A stretch of DNA of 64,000 bases from positions 62,001-126,000 of the forward strand of contig PNKZ01000002.1 of the NCBI GenBank assembly GCA_013822735.1. The letters run 5' to 3'. This document shows, one piece after another, positions 35,462 through 46,483 of the stretch. The notes under the pieces were generated by a model that was not told where the DNA came from, did no database searches, and saw only the letters and a list, made by a program, of their open reading frames with translations. Every line of letters begins with the position of its first letter. Position 1 is the first letter of the stretch. A program made the translations under genes and the position numbers. The stretch is from Pirellula sp. GTDB lineage: Bacteria > Planctomycetota > Planctomycetia > Pirellulales > PNKZ01.

Positions 35462-36391
35462 TCAATACCGGATCGACCAGCCGGCGCCGGTGAACGCCAG
35501 GTCGTCGGAGGCTTCGCTCAGGCCGACGGCGCTATGGATGTCGAGTTGCATGTTGTCGGTGACGAGATAGACGAAGCCCGTGTGAAAGTAATACTGCGTT
35601 TGAGCGGTGAGCGCGCCGGTCGGCGTAAAGAGGATGAACTCGTAGAACGAGCCGAATTTATCGGTGATCGTCACTTCGAAGTTCGCGGTCTGAATCAGTT
35701 CGACGTAGGTGTGCAGGGTGTCGTCGATCCGCCGGTTCGCTTGATTGTTGCATTCCAGTTCGAGCCAATCGTTGATGGTCCAACTGTAGGCGAATAAGTA
35801 GCCCGGCAGCACTTCGTCGGCCGAGAAACCGTCGCGTCCGACGGGAACGCGCATTTGGGGAAAAATCGCCGTCTCCGGGAGAATGCCGTCTTGGCGCGTC
35901 AGCGCGAGTTTGGCGCCGACGTAGAGATCGTCGAAGCCGCGGAGTCGCGTGCTGCCCGTCATCGGATCGCGCTGTTGCTCCAGGAGATAGGTCGTCGCCA
36001 AGCGGAACTCGAACCATTCCGCGAAGACGCCGAGTCGCAACAAGGGCTCGCCGAACGACTGCCCCTGCGTGACGACGCCCGAGTTGCTGTCGCGAGAATA
36101 GCTGTAACCGGTTTCGAGCTGTGCGGTGCCGAGGCCGACCAAGTTGCTCGCTTCGCTGATGTGGGGACGATCGGTGATGATCGTTTCGCTGCGCCCCGGC
36201 TCACCCGGACCTTGCCCCGCCCACCGCAAGAGCGACTTCTCATAACGAAACGAAGTCCGCGCCACCGGGCGGAGCCAATCGCCGTCGAGTGCGACGGTCG
36301 GCTCTTCACAGCGCGCGGTAGCTGCGCACGCCAGCACGGCGAGCGTAACGGCTCTCAAGAGTGCGGTTTGGATGCAATAAAAGTGAGGCAT
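35462..36391 (-). CDS. Outer-membrane beta-barrel protein, phenol-degradation MetA-pathway (transporter) family
   Basis: 309 residues with a signal peptide (LLRAVTLAVLACAATARC). The family's opening motif follows (IITDRPHISEASNLVGLGTAQLETGYSY), here in part, then alternating amphipathic strands (GVFAEWFEFRLATTYLLEQ; FAYSWTINDWLELECNNQ; QTQYYFHTGFVYLVTDNMQL) and a C-terminal aromatic (WSIRY), as in outer-membrane barrels. Family members are annotated as transporters; function is poorly known. It is divergent from the metal importer genes and precedes the metal efflux genes, so a role in metal passage is possible. Confidence 0.8.
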   Translation of the reverse strand: MPHFYCIQTALLRAVTLAVLACAATARCEEPTVALDGDWLRPVARTSFRYEKSLLRWAGQGPGEPGRSETIITDRPHISEASNLVGLGTAQLETGYSYSRDSNSGVVTQGQSFGEPLLRLGVFAEWFEFRLATTYLLEQQRDPMTGSTRLRGFDDLYVGAKLALTRQDGILPETAIFPQMRVPVGRDGFSADEVLPGYLFAYSWTINDWLELECNNQANRRIDDTLHTYVELIQTANFEVTITDKFGSFYEFILFTPTGALTAQTQYYFHTGFVYLVTDNMQLDIHSAVGLSEASDDLAFTGAGWSIRY

Positions 36392-36430
36392 GCTTAACGA
36401 ATCGTCACTCAGTAGGGTTTTTGATGACTC

Positions 36431-36444
36431 AAAATTAGTATTTT
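36431..36444. promoter_or_regulatory. Possible operator palindrome between divergent metal genes
   Basis: AAAAT-tagt-ATTTT in the AT-rich 162-bp gap between the outer-membrane protein gene and the metal-binding lipoprotein gene. Placement suits a metal-responsive repressor, but the sequence does not match a known Zur, MntR or Fur box closely. Confidence 0.25.
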
Positions 36445-36553: not shown

Positions 36554-37633
36554 ATGAACAATTCTGTGCTCAAAAACACGCCCTGCGGTAATGTTCGAAG
36601 TCGGTTGCTTGGGGCAGCACGACGTAATGCCCCGGCGGCCCGGGGCCTCGGCTTCAGCTCCAGCCCCGGCCGGCCTCGGCACTTTATTCATTGCCTCGCG
36701 ACGGCCGTCGTACTGACGCTCGTATGCGTCGGTTGCGGCCCTTCTGCCTCCGACGCTCTCCAGCCAGGCGAGTCGCGCACTTGGCCTCCGTTTGCCGGCA
36801 AGCGGCCGATGAAGGCGGTCTGCACGACCGGCATGGTCGCCGACATAGTGCGGCATGTCGCCGGCCCGCACGCCGAGGTCGAACAGATCATGGGGGAAGG
36901 GATCGACCCGCACCTCTTCAAGGCGACCCCCGACATTATCTCCCGGCTCGCGCAGTCGGACGTAATCTTCTACTCCGGCCTGCATCTGGAAGGGCGCATG
37001 GCCGACGTCTTCGAGCGGCTCGCCGAGCGCAAGCCGACCATTGCGATCACCTCGAGCATTCCGGTCGATAAGCTGCAGAACATCGGGCACGACGAACACG
37101 ATCCGCACGTTTGGTTCGATGTGGGCCTCTGGAGCCTGACGATCGACTCCGTCGAAAAGTTTCTCACGACCTTCGATCCCGCGCATGCCGCCGATTACAA
37201 AACCAACGCGACCGCCTATCGGGCCGAACTCAAGCAACTCGACCAAGAGTGCCGCGAAAAGCTCGCCGTGATTCCGACCGACGGCAGGGTGCTCGTCACC
37301 GCTCATGACGCCTTTCACTACTTCGGCCGGGCCTACAACGTGGAAGTGCGGGCCGTGCAAGGGGTGAGCACGGAGACGGAAGCCGGCGTGAAAGAAATCA
37401 ACGGGCTGGTCGATTTCATCGTGGCCCGCAAGATCAAGGCGGTGTTCATCGAGACGAGCGTGAGCGATCGGAACGTGCAGGCGCTGTTGGAAGGTTGTAA
37501 GCACGAAGGGCACAACGTCGGCATCGGCGGCGAACTCTTCAGCGACTCGATGGGGAAGGCCGGCACGCCGGAAGGAACGTACGTCGGCATGGTCCGGCAC
37601 AATGTGGATGTGATCGCCAAGGCGCTTCGTTAG
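36554..37633 (+). CDS. Metal ABC transporter substrate-binding lipoprotein (ZnuA/MntC/TroA type)
   Basis: A 359-residue cluster A-I binding protein. Its N-terminus is unusually long, with the export signal only at about 44-60 ([18 protein letters not shown]) and probable lipidation at C61. A GC hairpin (36629-36646) lies in the DNA encoding the extra part. Metal ligands of the family are recognisable: [22 protein letters not shown] and an acidic group in the C-terminal lobe ([10 protein letters not shown]). [11 protein letters not shown] is also typical. Together with the ATPase and two permeases downstream, it imports Mn2+ or Zn2+ (Fe2+ is possible). There is no His-rich loop, which slightly favours Mn. 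Confidence 0.93.
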
Positions 37634-37641
37634 AGGTTTGC

Positions 37642-38472
37642 ATGATTCAGGTGCCGCAAGCTGCAAGTTCTACGACCGGTGTGAAGACGAGCGATTCGAA
37701 ATCGAACACTGCGCGGATTCTCGACGTGCACGACATGACCGTGGCCTACCACCAACGGCCGGTGCTCTGGGACGTCGACTTCACGCTCGACGAACCGCGG
37801 TTGGTCGGCATCATCGGACCGAACGGCGCGGGAAAAAGCACGTTTATTAAGGCGATTCTCGGCCTCGTGCCGCTGGCGGGCGGGAGCGTGAAGCTCTTCG
37901 GCACGGCGCCCGAAGCGCAACGTAAGCGCATCGGCTACGTGCCGCAGCGCGAGAGCGTTGATTGGGATTTTCCCGTGAGCGTGCTCGACGTGGTGCTGAT
38001 GGGAACCTACGGCCGGCTCGGCTGGTTTCGCAGGCCGCGGGCCGCGGACATTGCCTGGGCGCGCGAATGCCTGGCGCAAGTGGGGCTGGCCGATTTCGCG
38101 TATCGGCAGATCGGCCAACTTTCCGGCGGGCAGCAACAGCGCACGTTTCTGGCTCGCGCGCTGGCGCAGAAGGCCGACATCTACTTCATGGACGAGCCGA
38201 TGGCCGGCGTGGATGCGGCGACCGAGCGCGTGGTGTTCGCGCTATTGAAACAATTGCGCGCGGAAGGGAAGACGCTGCTGGTGGTGCACCATGACTTGCG
38301 CACCGTTGCGGAATATTTCGAAATGGTGGCGATGCTCAACATGCGCCTGACGGCGGCGGGCCCGACGGCGGAAGTGTTTACGCCGGACAACCTGCGCAAG
38401 ACCTACGGCGGCCGCTTGGAAGTGCTCGACGCGGCGGCCGAAGCGCTGCGCAAGAAACAACGAAGCGACTGA
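37642..38472 (+). CDS. Metal ABC transporter ATP-binding protein
   Basis: 276 residues, starting 8 bp after the binding-protein gene. Walker A is GPNGAGKST, the Q-loop is [13 protein letters not shown] (the VDWDFP wording is typical of Mn/Zn-type systems such as MntB/TroB), the signature is LSGGQQQR, Walker B is [12 protein letters not shown] and the switch is VVHHD. The first about 25 residues are poorly conserved. It energises the two permeases that follow. Confidence 0.95.
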
Positions 38473-38478
38473 GAAAGG

Positions 38479-38561
38479 AGTTATGAATTGGGAGTTATGA
38501 GTTATGAACAAACTCATCGAGCGTTTGCCCTTTCATAACTCATAATTCAAAACTCATAACT
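38479..38561. repeat. Heptad inverted repeat (AGTTATG word)
   Basis: Left arm from 38479: agttatg, aattggg, agttatg, agttatg. Right arm 38534-38561: cataact, cataatt, caaaact, cataact. It fills the 97-bp gap between ATPase and permease and ends 8 bases before the GTG start of the permease. No Shine-Dalgarno site is visible there. Confidence 0.92.
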
Positions 38562-38569
38562 ATTCCCCC

Positions 38570-39889
38570 GTGCTTGACCTCTCCTACAACACGATCGTCG
38601 TCTTGCTCGGCACTTCGTTGCTTGGGGCGGGGGCGGGGCTCGTCGGGAGCTTTACCGTCTTGCGCGGACGGGCGCTCATCGGTGACGTCTTGGCGCATGC
38701 CGCGCTGCCGGGTTTGTGTCTCGCGTTCTTGATTCTTGGGCGACGCAATCTGACGTCGATGCTCGCCGGGGCCCTGGTTTCAGGCCTGATCGCCGTGTTG
38801 CTGCTGACGCTCTTGCGTAGCGCGACGCGCGTGAAAGACGACGCCGTGATGGGAACGATTCGGAGCGTCTTCTTCGGCGGCGGCGTCGTGCTCATCAGCT
38901 ATATCCAGAACCGCTCGGTCGAAGGAAGCAAGGCAGGGCTCGATTCGTATATCCTCGGCAAGACGGCGGGGATGATCGCGGCCGACGTGCAACTGATCGG
39001 CGGCGTGGCCTTGGCGGCGCTGGTGTGCATCGTGTTGCTTTACAAAGAGATGCAACTGGCGTCGTTCGATCCCGGCTTTGCCCGCGTGCAAGGTTGGCCG
39101 GCGTTGGCGCTCGACAACTTGCAGATGGCTCTGGCGGCGCTGGTGACCGTGGTGGGGTTGCCGGCCGTCGGCGCGGTGCTGGTGGCGGCGATGCTCATTC
39201 TGCCGGGCGTGACCATGCGCTTCTGGACCGATCGCTTAGGTAAGTTGCTGTTGGGAGCCGCGCTGATCGGCGCGACGATCGGCGGCGCGGGGACGCTGGC
39301 CAGCGCGAAGTTCAGCCTGTTGCCGGCCGGCCCGGTGATCATTCTCGTGGGGACGTTCATCTTCGTGCTCTCGATGCTCTTCGCCCCGCGGCGCGGCGTG
39401 CTCGCCCGAGCCGCGGCGCTGCGCGACTTTCGCCGCATGCTAGCGCGGCAGAAGCTGCTGGCCGCGCTCTATACATTCTGCGAAGGGCCCGAGGGGGACG
39501 ATGCTTGGCTGACCGATGAGGAGATCGCCGCGACTTTGGAGATGTCGCCCCGTGCGGCGCGGCGCGTCGTCTACGATGCGCTGCTGAGCGGCGCCCTGCA
39601 GCCGCGCGAATCGGCGAAGGGAACGGAATACGGCCTCACGGAGTTTGGCTGGGAGCACGCGATCCTGATCGTGCGCGGCGAACGGCTGTGGCGGCTCTAC
39701 TTGCTCGAACACCCTGATTTAGCCGGACAATTGGTCGATTTGGACCTGACGAAGGTCGACGAGCATTTGCCGGCTGACGTAGTGCAGGATCTCGAAGCGA
39801 AGCTCCGTGCGGAGAACCGCTTGCCGGAAACGGACGCCTCGGCCGATGCTTACGCCGCGGCGCACCGTGCCGCAGGAGGGGGGCCATGA
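38570..39889 (+). CDS. Metal ABC transporter permease with degenerate DtxR-like C-terminal domain
   Basis: 439 residues. Residues 1-275 form the ABC-3 family permease (GSFTVLRGRALIGDVLAHAA; LPAVGAVLVAAMLILPG). The remaining 160 residues are an extra cytoplasmic part. It has a winged helix-turn-helix (LTDEEIAATLEMSPRAARRV, about 315-334; YGLTEFGWEHA, 354-364) and a helix matching the DtxR dimerisation region. The DtxR ligand motif HRLxE is replaced by ERLWR (374-378), so metal ligands are lost. The gene starts at GTG and its stop overlaps the next permease's ATG by 4 bases. Probably pairs with that permease as a heterodimer. Confidence 0.9.
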   Translation: MLDLSYNTIVVLLGTSLLGAGAGLVGSFTVLRGRALIGDVLAHAALPGLCLAFLILGRRNLTSMLAGALVSGLIAVLLLTLLRSATRVKDDAVMGTIRSVFFGGGVVLISYIQNRSVEGSKAGLDSYILGKTAGMIAADVQLIGGVALAALVCIVLLYKEMQLASFDPGFARVQGWPALALDNLQMALAALVTVVGLPAVGAVLVAAMLILPGVTMRFWTDRLGKLLLGAALIGATIGGAGTLASAKFSLLPAGPVIILVGTFIFVLSMLFAPRRGVLARAAALRDFRRMLARQKLLAALYTFCEGPEGDDAWLTDEEIAATLEMSPRAARRVVYDALLSGALQPRESAKGTEYGLTEFGWEHAILIVRGERLWRLYLLEHPDLAGQLVDLDLTKVDEHLPADVVQDLEAKLRAENRLPETDASADAYAAAHRAAGGGP

Positions 39890-41202
39890 GCGACTTCGTC
39901 TTATGGGGACCCGGCGCCGAATATACGTGGTGGAATATCGCCGTCGGGGCGATCGTGAACTCGGCCTGTGCGATCTTGGGATGCTTCTTGGTACTCCGGC
40001 GGATGAGCATGCTCGGCGATGCGATCAGCCACGCCGTGCTGCCGGGGATCGTCTTGGCGTATCTCTTCGCCGGACGGGATGCCGTGTTCATGCTCTTCCT
40101 CGGCGCGATGCTCGTCGGCGTGTTGACGGCGCTGCTCGTGCAAACGCTCCACCGTTTCGGCGGCGTGGCGGAAGACGCCGGACTCGGGATCGTGTTTACG
40201 TCGCTCTTTAGCATCGGCGTGGTGCTGGTAAGCAATTACGCATCGCGGGCGCATATCGACGTGAACTGCGTGCTGTTCGGCGACATGGATTTCGTCTCGC
40301 TCGACCGTTTCTATTGGGGTCCGTTTGACGTACCGCGATCGCTGCCGAAGATGCTCTTGGCGCTAGGGGCCGTGATCGTGTTCGTGACCGTGTTTTGGAA
40401 GGAACTGAAGATCGCGTCGTTCGACCCGGCACTGGCGACGGCCATGGGCATTAGCGCGGTGGCGGTGCATTACCTATTGATGGGGATGACGGCCGTCGTG
40501 ACCGTCGCGGCGTTTGAAGCCGTCGGGGCGGTGATTTGCGTGGCGATGCTCATCGTGCCCGCCGCGACGGCCTACTTACTTACCGATCGTTTGAGCACGA
40601 TGACGCTGTTGGCCGTGGGCGTGGCCGTATTGTCGTCGTTCGCCGGCTGCATCATCGCCCCGATTACCGGCACCAATATCGCCGGCATGATGGCGGTTGC
40701 GGCGGGGGGCCAATTCGCTTTGGCCGTGGCGTTCGCTCCGCGGTATGGTCTCCTCAGCAAGGCTTGGCAAGCTTGGCGGCTTTCGGCCCGCATCGCCGCC
40801 GAAGATCTCACGGCCCTGCTTTACCGAGCCGACGAAACGACCAAGCCGGACGTGCCGCGCGGGCTGCGTATCGTCGACCTGCTGGCCGCCGTGGGGCGCG
40901 GGCTGACCGGACGATTGGCGCTCCGCAAGTTGATCCATTCGGGCACCGTCGAGCCCAGCGGCGCGGGGCGACTCGTGCTCAGCGTTGCGGGACGTCGCGA
41001 CGCGGAATCGCTCATTCGGTCGCACCGTTTGTGGGAGGCCTACCTCGTCGAGCACTTTCAATTGCCGCTCGACCACCTGCACGAACCCGCTGAGCATCTG
41101 GAGCACTTTATCGGGCCGGAGTTACAGCAGCAGTTGGCGGCGAGCCTGCCGAAAGCCGACACCGATCCGCACGGCCGCGAGATTCCGCCTAAGCAGAATT
41201 AG
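39886..41202 (+). CDS. Metal ABC transporter permease with DtxR/MntR-like metal-binding C-terminal domain
   Basis: 438 residues: ABC-3 permease in 1-290 (LRRMSMLGDAISHAVLPG; EAVGAVICVAMLIVPAAT), then a DtxR-type extension. Helix-turn-helix-like sequence lies at about 327-353. The metal-binding/dimerisation domain follows, with RSHRLWEAYLVEHF and HLHEPAEHLEHFIG. H380, E384, H399, E403, E406 and H407 align with the ligands of DtxR/MntR (E403 in place of the DtxR Cys102, as in MntR). The tail PHGREIP matches the DtxR PFGNPIP end of that domain. This looks like an attached cytoplasmic metal sensor. Start overlaps the previous stop. Confidence 0.92.
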   Translation: MSDFVLWGPGAEYTWWNIAVGAIVNSACAILGCFLVLRRMSMLGDAISHAVLPGIVLAYLFAGRDAVFMLFLGAMLVGVLTALLVQTLHRFGGVAEDAGLGIVFTSLFSIGVVLVSNYASRAHIDVNCVLFGDMDFVSLDRFYWGPFDVPRSLPKMLLALGAVIVFVTVFWKELKIASFDPALATAMGISAVAVHYLLMGMTAVVTVAAFEAVGAVICVAMLIVPAATAYLLTDRLSTMTLLAVGVAVLSSFAGCIIAPITGTNIAGMMAVAAGGQFALAVAFAPRYGLLSKAWQAWRLSARIAAEDLTALLYRADETTKPDVPRGLRIVDLLAAVGRGLTGRLALRKLIHSGTVEPSGAGRLVLSVAGRRDAESLIRSHRLWEAYLVEHFQLPLDHLHEPAEHLEHFIGPELQQQLAASLPKADTDPHGREIPPKQN

Positions 41203-43935: not shown

Positions 43936-44119
43936 GGCGAGCGTCGAGCCGTAAGGCCGACGTGTCTGCAGGCAGGCGCTATGCTCGAAGTTACTCGAGC
44001 AGCGCAAGCATTCTCCCCTCGCCCCTTGCGTGAGAGGGGCCGGGGGTGAGGGGGAACCGCACGTTGGCGCCTCGCCATGAGTATTACGGACACGTCGGTC
44101 TTACGGCTCGACGCTCGCC
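43936..44119. repeat. Composite repeat: inverted 31-bp copies around a CCCTCACCCC element
   Basis: A 31-base unit (43936-43966, ending gccgacgtgtc) is repeated in inverse orientation at 44089-44119. Between them lie a small hairpin (TGCTCGA/TCGAGCA, 43982-44001) and a GC-rich palindromic unit at 44013-44054 (ctcccctcgccccttgcg and onward). The same unit is at 56291-56365. No gene in this stretch. Confidence 0.82.
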
Positions 44120-44140
44120 AATACGCCGTTCCGAGTCGCC

Positions 44141-44167
44141 GGAACGCCACGGAGGGCGTTCCCTACA
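44141..44167. repeat. GGAACGCC...GGCGTTCC repeat at the ecfT stop
   Basis: Hairpin ggaacgccacggagggcgttcc plus ctaca, given here split at 20 bases: ggaacgccacggagggcgtt + ccctaca. The stop codon of the EcfT gene (minus strand) is the TAG in this unit. Two further copies, inverted to each other, are at 49429-49501. Confidence 0.82.
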
Positions 44168-44990
44168 AAGAGTTTTGCCAATGCAAGTACGCTTCCCAAG
44201 TGCGCCACGCGATCAATACGAAGCACAGCGTTCCAATCGCCGCCATTGCCGCTCGTTCCCATCTGCGCATGGTCTGCGGCGGATACTGGGTGCGCGGTCG
44301 GCGCGGGTCGAAGCCGCGGGCGGTGACGCTTTCCGCCAAGGTTTCCGCCTTGCGTAACGCCCCGGCAATCACGGGCAGAAGAAAGCCGATCTCTTGCGGC
44401 AGTTTGTACCAGCGGAACTTGTAGCCCCGGTAACGGCGCGCTTGCCGTACGAGCGCCACTTCCTCGACGAGCAGCGGGAGGAATCGCAGCGCCGTAGCCG
44501 TCATAAACGCGAGCGCCGTCGGCACGCGAAACCAGGCCAGCGCCGCCAGCATCCGCTCGGGGCCGGTCGACAAACTGGCGGTGAGCCCGGCCAGCGCCGT
44601 GGCGACGAAGCGTAGCGATTGCACGGCGCCGTAAACCAGTCCCTCCTGCGTGAGAACGACCCCTGCAAAATAGTCTTCCCCTGCGCCGCGTGGCGAAATG
44701 ATCGTCAAGAGCACCGTGCGGGGCGTCCCAACATAGAAGAAGCCTTGCGAAAGCATCGTGCTCCAAACGATGACCGCCAATACGCCGACAATGGAGAGCC
44801 AGCCGCGCGAGCGCAGCCGTAGGCCGGTGCTCCACAGCACGGCGACGGCGCAACAAGCCGCGAGCGCGCGCATATCGTCGACGCAAACGACGACGACCGA
44901 CATGCCGAACACGGCGGCTAACTTCAAACGTGGATCGAGCCGCGCGAGCCAAGGGCGCGCAACGTCGGGCCCGAACGTGAGACCGTTCAT
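44163..44990 (-). CDS. ecfT: ECF transporter T component
   Basis: 275 residues from ATG 44990, overlapping the ATPase stop by 4 bases. About five membrane helices in the CbiQ/EcfT plan (LKLAAVFGMSVVVVCVDDM; WLSIVGVLAVIVWSTML), and the two coupling-helix Ala-Arg-x motifs ARRYRGYK and AESVTARGFD that bind the ATPases. It links the ATPase pair to the substrate-binding S component in import of a vitamin or metal. The reading frame ends in a dispersed repeat, which provides the stop codon. Confidence 0.92.
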   Translation of the reverse strand: MNGLTFGPDVARPWLARLDPRLKLAAVFGMSVVVVCVDDMRALAACCAVAVLWSTGLRLRSRGWLSIVGVLAVIVWSTMLSQGFFYVGTPRTVLLTIISPRGAGEDYFAGVVLTQEGLVYGAVQSLRFVATALAGLTASLSTGPERMLAALAWFRVPTALAFMTATALRFLPLLVEEVALVRQARRYRGYKFRWYKLPQEIGFLLPVIAGALRKAETLAESVTARGFDPRRPRTQYPPQTMRRWERAAMAAIGTLCFVLIAWRTWEAYLHWQNSL

Positions 44991-46483
44991 CGCGGCACCT
45001 CGCGGCGCTCGAGCGCGGCCCGATCGGCATCGATGACCCAGCCGTCGCGGCCGGCAATCCAGATACGATCGGCGTAGTGCAAGGCGGTACGCAGGTGATG
45101 CGTTGAAAACAGCACGGCTGCGGGGCCGTGCGCGGTGCCTACCGTGCGGCGGAGCGCGGCCATCACCAGATCGACCGTCGGTCCGTCCTGCCCGGTCGTC
45201 GGTTCGTCGAGCAGGAGCAAACTCGGCGACGTCGCGAAGGCCGCCGCCAGCGCCGTCCGCACGCGTTGCCCCCGGCTGAGGGCTTGCGGAGGTTCGTCGA
45301 GCAATGCCTCCAGTTGAAACGTCGCGGCGGCAAGTTGCACGCGCTCGGCGACCGTCGCGGCGTGGCAGTCCGTTTGTCGGGGACCAAACGCCAGTTCGTC
45401 GCGCACCGTGCGAGAAAAGAGGGTCAGGTCGACCTGCTGCGGCACCAAGGTTCCGGCGACGCGATGTTCGGTCGCGTGCCAAGTGATCTTGCCGGCGGTA
45501 GGTCTTAACGCTCCTCCTAGGAGGGCGAGCAGCGTACTTTTCCCGACACCGTTGGGTCCGACCAGCGCGATGCACTCGCCGTCGTGAATCGTGGCGGTGA
45601 GGTTGGTCCACACGTCGCACGGGGCCGTCGGATAGCGAAAGCCCACGTCGGCGAGCGTCACGATCGATGCGGCATTTTTCGATGCGCGAACGTGCGGCAC
45701 GGGCTCGACCGACAAGACTTCGAGGCGCGCTGCTTTGAGTGCTGCGGAGACTTGGACTGCGTCGCGCGCGACGACATCCGCCACGAGCCGGCCGGCATCG
45801 AGCACCAGCAACCGATCGGCGTGCGGCAGAACGTCTTCCAATCGGTGTTCGGCCATAACGATCGCGACTCCGTCGTCGCGCAGTCGGCAAAGTTCCGCGA
45901 GCAGCGAGCGCGCCGCATTAGCATCGAGTTGGCTAAGGGGCTCGTCGCACACGAGTACCAGCGGGCGCATCGCCGCCACGGCCGCTAAGACCAATCGTTG
46001 CCGCAAACCTCCGGAAAGCGTTTGTGGCGACGCATAGCGGAAGCCGTGCAAGCCGAAGCGTTGTAAGGTTCCGTCGATGCGGCGCCCGATCTCCTCCGAC
46101 GGCAGCGCGAGATTTTCCAACCCGAACGCAATCTCCGCGTCCACGCTGCTCGTGCAAATCTGATCGTCGGGCGACTGCACGATGAGCCCGACGGTGGGGG
46201 CAAGATCGGCCGGCGCGGTGGTCCTAGTGTTGCGTCCGCAGATCTGCACGAGGCCCGCCATCGTGCCGGACGCTTGGTGCGGGATGAGCCCGGCCAGCGC
46301 GCGGAGCAACGTACTTTTGCCCGAGCCGGTCGGGCCGGCGACGACCGTGAACGACCCGCGCGGCAAAGTGAACGTGACGTCATGAAGCGTCGGCACGGCG
46401 CGCTCGGCGAACGTGTAGCCGAGTCCCGCCGCTTCGACGGCCGGACCTTCCACAGCGGCTGTAGTCGGCAAAGCATCGCTCAC
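44987..46483 (-). CDS. ECF transporter ATPase, fused A-A' protein
   Basis: Two ABC ATPase domains in one chain (498 residues from GTG 46483, which overlaps the S-component stop by 4 bases; a start at 46513 is possible). Domain 1: [40 protein letters not shown]. Domain 2: [44 protein letters not shown]. The second signature has Arg instead of the second Gly. The fusion corresponds to EcfA1-EcfA2 of other ECF importers. It energises transport together with the T and S proteins. Confidence 0.92.

Follow-up and report, generated by a model that had tools for sequence, protein, structure and literature searches.

The window (the whole 64,000-nucleotide stretch of Pirellula sp. DNA that was analysed) carries a four-gene operon at 36554-41202, which encodes a binding protein (SBP), an ATPase, permease 1 and permease 2 (Table 1). 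Judged by sequence and modelled fold it encodes a TroABCD/PsaBCA-type Mn(II)/Fe(II) ABC importer, since the SBP is nearest to TroA, the ATPase is Mn/Fe-like and permease 2 is nearest in fold to PsaC. A cluster-9 SBP, an ABC ATPase and ABC-3 permeases lie together in one operon, the combination that defines these importers. The closest PDB match of the SBP is TroA (1toa, 1.1e-77), and the matches to PsaA and MntC are strong too. The ATPase is 276 aa long without an extra domain. Its top NCBIfam names are Mn/Fe ABC ATPases, with scores under those families' cut-offs. Pneumococcal PsaC (7kyp) is the nearest fold to the modelled membrane domain of permease 2 (Z 33.3, rmsd 2.4). The ORF of permease 1 (38570-39889, 439 aa) has a GTG start, and that of permease 2 (39886-41202, 438 aa) overlaps it by 4 bp. 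The gap that separates the ATPase gene from permease 1 holds an AT-rich 30-nt imperfect inverted repeat at 38479-38561 (units AGTTATGA/TCATAACT, 87% complementary, 23-nt loop), the sole such cluster in the window. Going by their translations, genes near the importer on the minus strand (44101-45890) resemble an energy-coupling-factor type transporter, with an ATPase and a T component.

Table 1. Features of the importer operon and its upstream spacer (window coordinates).
Feature	Position	Strand	Basis
Palindromic operator TTTTGATGACTCAAAA, probable free-MntR site, in the divergent spacer ahead of the SBP gene	36419..36434	.	motif conservation
Periplasmic metal-binding protein, TroA/PsaA type (SBP)	36554..37633	+	PF01297 E 4e-76
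ABC ATPase of Mn/Fe importer	37642..38472	+	PF00005 E 8e-28
Permease 1 membrane domain (residues 1-276)	38570..39397	+	ABC-3 PF00950 E 8.8e-55
Permease 1 DtxR-fold tail (residues 277-439), metal site lost	39398..39886	+	model, family profile, ligand table
Permease 2 membrane domain (residues 1-288)	39886..40749	+	PF00950 E 3.4e-49; model vs PsaC 7kyp
Permease 2 continuous helix 289-318 (connector and DtxR helix 1, with D307)	40750..40839	+	model
Permease 2 eroded winged HTH (residues 319-365)	40840..40980	+	fold predicted; HTH profile score ~0
Permease 2 metal-binding/dimerisation domain (residues 366-438)	40981..41199	+	PF02742; Z 16-18 to DtxR/MntR structures

In TroABCD with TroR of Treponema and in PsaBCA the permeases have no DtxR tail and the repressor is a separate protein. 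Here both permeases end in about 150-163 additional residues with the DtxR/MntR fold. The tail of permease 2 (residues 289-438) matches PF02742 with an E of 1.3e-19, and its matches among PDB sequences are to the DtxR family (best E 2.5e-13). The permeases were modelled as single chains. The full-length model of permease 2 has a pLDDT of 93 and a pTM of 0.87, and residues 299-438 align with DtxR, IdeR and DR2539 at Z 16-18 and rmsd 2.2-2.6. The last membrane helix runs through a short turn into a single predicted helix (pLDDT ~96-97) without a flexible linker, and model confidence is high throughout.

Permease 2 has both the dimerisation domain and the site 1 and site 2 ligands of the DtxR/MntR family. 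The original prediction named H380, E384, H399, E403, E406 and H407 as its metal ligands, and all six are present. D307, at the position of DtxR M10 and MntR D8, is a seventh candidate and is found in at least 90% of homologues. The fold and the ligand set are those of the Mn-type DtxR family (MntR DR2539, SloR and ScaR). H380, R381, L382, E384, H399, E406 and H407 are invariant in 68 homologues from several phyla. E403 is more variable, being E in about 59% and otherwise mostly H, D or M. The five core ligands are conserved and the DtxR fold is predicted, so neither of the refuting conditions named in the original prediction came true. In five loci (L035, L036, L038, L039 and L098) permease 2 extends about 90 residues beyond the DtxR core, and this extra stretch may be what is left of the SH3-like third domain that full-length DtxR has.

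The homology of the permease 1 tail to DtxR is visible only through its family profile and its predicted fold. By itself this tail is sub-threshold for PF02742 (E 0.04-0.3). A profile of permease 1 orthologues matches SloR at 1.9e-17 across the entire winged helix-turn-helix (HTH) and dimerisation region. The model has a pLDDT of 90.8, and its best whole-length fold match is DtxR (Z ~11, rmsd 3.9, ~130 residues). The metal site is lost here, since the seven ligand positions read K295, E371, R375, D390, T394, D397 and E398. This loss had been noted in the original prediction, and it turns out to be special to the clade of the window. Permease 1 of the window belongs to a subgroup that lost its ligands, and most relatives keep the site intact. 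Permease 1 tails have their own ligand set, slightly different from that of permease 2. In DtxR numbering it is usually H/N10, then H79, E83, D98, D102, E105 and H106, and it is complete in 61 of 80 tails.

The ligand-free tail is still under purifying selection (dN/dS ~0.13 for the closest pair). One can imagine from this that the tails serve only the assembly or stability of the transporter and that any metal site is structural. We think this quite unlikely, because the seven-residue ligand set of permease 2, near-invariant apart from E403, matches a regulatory site. A tryptophan at DtxR position 36, in the eroded HTH, occurs in 75% of permease 1 tails and is specific to tails. Another at position 82 (HRLWE) is found in 98% of both tails and is not the consensus among free regulators. 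These tryptophans suggest, from the alignment, that the tails have made new contacts.

It is worth considering which part of the DtxR module has been kept. In an alignment with free regulators the tails no longer show the recognition-helix consensus at positions 37-48 or the residues of the wing at 56-61, and positions 77-106 are still conserved. Scored with a free-DtxR HTH profile, free regulators reach a median of 82.7 bits, and the median of either tail group is 0.0. The dimerisation/metal profile gives 93 bits on free regulators and 34 and 32 on the two tail groups. The controls for the HTH profile were free regulators, including the MntR of B. subtilis. That protein scores 33 bits for dimerisation, so it is as distant as the tails, yet it scores 52.8 bits for the HTH. 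General divergence therefore does not account for the loss. The Pfam HTH model PF01325 agrees. It finds free regulators in 8 of 8 dual-tail or related genomes, and no fused tail is among the matches listed for them. It does not detect the tails of the window genome's permeases either. Among the PF01325 matches listed for the planctomycete sample, nearly every one falls in a short ORF, and the few long frames are of undecided nature. The fused ORFs that PF02742 finds in the phylum survey are absent among the PF01325 matches listed, bar a few ambiguous long frames. In Spirochaetota only one ORF of more than 400 aa is among the matches listed.

The same loss is seen inside a genus. Compared with its counterpart in the nearest relative, the HTH of the fused permease 2 in the window genome is 48% identical (dN 0.54). 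The dS of 1.07 approaches saturation, which makes rate ratios only approximate. The membrane and metal domains of the same protein are 85% identical, and the metal domain has a dN of 0.11. The HTH of the free MntR in these two genomes is 98% identical (dN 0.02). The HTH is also shortened in several orthologues of the tails. The original prediction placed a C-terminal winged HTH and the DtxR dimerisation fold on both permeases. The single-chain models and the profiles bear out the fold for both extensions, but judged from models and alignments the winged HTH survives as a fold only and its DNA-contact sequence is gone. Neither tail has the conserved DNA-reading HTH that marks a DtxR/MntR transcriptional repressor.

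This bears directly on the suggestion that the intact permease binds DNA at the membrane through its tails. The winged HTH fold is kept and has a weakly positive charge, which speaks for such a tethered regulator. However, its recognition helix is unconserved even inside a genus and its HTH is shortened in several orthologues, so we regard this scenario as extremely improbable. With the recognition helix eroded and the metal site conserved, the evidence points more to a transporter that inhibits itself than to one that binds DNA at the membrane. DNA binding by the tails, whether tethered or released, is disfavoured on the sequence evidence.

The original prediction asked whether a free MntR/DtxR is missing from these genomes, and it is not. 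The window genome has a canonical free MntR with an intact HTH (contig C27, 17175-17876), and at E below 1e-30 a free MntR is also present in 34 of 40 relatives. The palindrome that precedes the SBP gene follows the motif TTTTGA-N4-TCAAAA. Of 79 upstream regions, 20 contain this motif exactly (0 in shuffles) and 29 contain it within 1 mismatch (0.1 in shuffles). Only two exact copies exist in the 6.88-Mb genome. The second one (C7:256778) is near kdsB and a pilin-like gene, and no metal gene was seen in its surroundings. With up to 2 mismatches the motif occurs in 22 of 22 relatives that have a free MntR and evaluable upstream DNA. It was not found in G015 and G038, which are complete genomes with tailed permeases and without a free MntR. 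G035, an incomplete genome in which free MntR was not detected, carries it. It is well supported by this pattern that free MntR controls transcription of the operon at the predicted operator, to which we infer that it binds. Another palindrome, GTGAGGCATGCTTAAC at 36383-36398, was set aside in favour of the conserved motif. An FNR box was ruled out because the spacing is 4, and the FNR consensus has a spacing of 6.

In 12 loci (L051, L056, L058, L059, L064, L068, L076, L083, L095, L112, L115 and L119) the dual-tail operon has a free DtxR/MntR gene in its neighbourhood, so up to three DtxR-type domains are encoded there. Tails and free MntR have the dimerisation core in common and co-occur in most genomes. 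One could therefore propose that the tails pair with free MntR through this domain and report the state of the transporter to it. The dozen or so loci with a neighbouring free DtxR would fit such a trigger. However, the tails remain in G015 and G038, where free MntR was not detected, and we give this idea a low chance.

The fusion architecture by itself is not new, because YtgCR is known, a precedent that the original prediction overlooked. Chlamydia YtgCR (CT069) is a permease-DtxR fusion from which YtgR is cleaved, and this part then acts with Fe(II) as a repressor of its own operon (PMC5599777, PMC6504234). Permease-DtxR fusions have been reported in 11 phyla (PMC5599777). YtgCR and the window have the same SBP-ATPase-permease-permease operon, with a DtxR-type domain at the C-terminus of a permease in the same ORF and conserved metal ligands. 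They differ in what the domain can do. YtgR is a DNA-binding protein set free by cleavage, no other iron regulator is known in its genome, and one permease is described as fused. The intactness of its HTH is taken here from published DNA binding and not from sequence comparison. The permeases of the window are both fused, their HTH has eroded and the genome also encodes a free MntR, so the fused domain does not look like the genome's own repressor. MntR DR2539, SloR and ScaR are likewise free DNA-binding regulators with an intact recognition helix, unlike the tails. What is new by sequence relative to the known fusion is that both permeases are usually fused, that DNA reading is lost and that a free MntR exists alongside.

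The Chlamydia precedent, in which cleavage and Fe-dependent repression were shown (PMC5599777, PMC6504234), is a reason to suppose that proteolysis releases the tail here too, and that the soluble product represses the operon in response to metal, given that architecture and operon type are equal. We argue that this is very unlikely. The HTH sequence is lost and weakly constrained between close species, a free MntR with an intact HTH exists, and the operator tracks that MntR and not the tails. The model has no flexible linker either, although a rigid junction is still compatible with cleavage.

The tails are widespread. A match to permease 2 is found in 35 of 40 relatives, mostly two per genome. 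A scan of GTDB genomes gave more loci in Planctomycetota, Verrucomicrobiota, Kiritimatiellae, Latescibacterota, Omnitrophota, Spirochaetes and others. Among the 99 loci with both permeases, 81 have tails on both, 15 on permease 2 only, 1 on permease 1 only and 2 on neither. In the tree of tails, which fixes neither the root nor the number of fusion events, free regulators split from tails with a support of 100/99 and almost all permease 2 tails fall in one group (98/94).

We argue that the tails probably throttle the importer rather than switch genes, since the metal site is kept and the DNA-reading part is lost. A sensor that is rigidly attached to the permeases, predicted to be metal-competent and unable to read DNA would couple cytosolic metal to transport. 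In the scenario we propose, the tails of permease 1 and permease 2 would pair beneath the transporter as a DtxR-like heterodimer. Cytosolic metal would fill the site of permease 2, and permease 1 would be the metal-free partner in the clade of the window. The metal-loaded pair would then lock the assembly of permeases and ATPase, and uptake would stop by trans-inhibition. Such a brake would act as a fast feedback on top of the slower repression by MntR. That inhibition is the direction of the effect is inferred by analogy with MetNI and ModBC and from how metal homeostasis would be expected to work.

Several findings support the brake. The core ligands are invariant, the DNA-contact sequence of the HTH is lost, and transcription is covered by a separate free MntR and its probable operator. 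The tails are kept in G015 and G038 despite the lack of both free MntR and operator. A rigid helix joins the tail to the last membrane helix, both permeases are fused in most loci, and the permease 1 tail is under purifying selection. It must be noted that the known trans-inhibition domains of ABC importers count against it. Those of MetN and ModC sit on the ATPase, not on a permease, and their fold is unrelated to DtxR. The window has its domains on the permeases. Its conserved metal site may bind the transported metal, as the regulatory domain of a trans-inhibited importer binds its substrate. The proposed logic is the same, that a cytosolic substrate-binding domain shuts the importer. If our argument holds, the importer works like a trans-inhibited one but outside the MetN/ModC type.

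A metal site together with lost DNA binding would also fit a metal acceptor, activation or signalling to MntR. Since the tails are cytosolic and lie where the metal exits, the same conserved site could serve to accept or buffer imported metal, or to activate transport once loaded instead of inhibiting it. We consider this unlikely. The whole DtxR regulatory core, fold and helix 1 included, is conserved beyond what a simple acceptor needs, and certain loci have no tails at all. On sequence and models, then, the reading that we prefer is that the DtxR module now serves the importer as an inhibitory sensor of cytosolic metal, alongside slower repression by MntR, and we give this a probability of roughly 0.55. 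For the broader proposal, that DNA-blind DtxR/MntR heterodimers on Mn/Fe importer permeases of Planctomycetota and several other phyla sense cytosolic metal and trans-inhibit in parallel to free MntR, we would offer even odds.

Import of Mn and Fe in bacteria has been described as controlled mainly at the level of transcription. Neither DtxR-type domains nor such a brake on ABC metal importers appear in a 2023 review of transporter switching (PMC10710835). The findings also caution against annotating every permease-DtxR fusion as a YtgR-like repressor. A strongly conserved metal site is widespread on this importer and the DNA-reading sequence has been lost. If the brake is true, it would be a fast control of metal uptake, and one that is directly testable.
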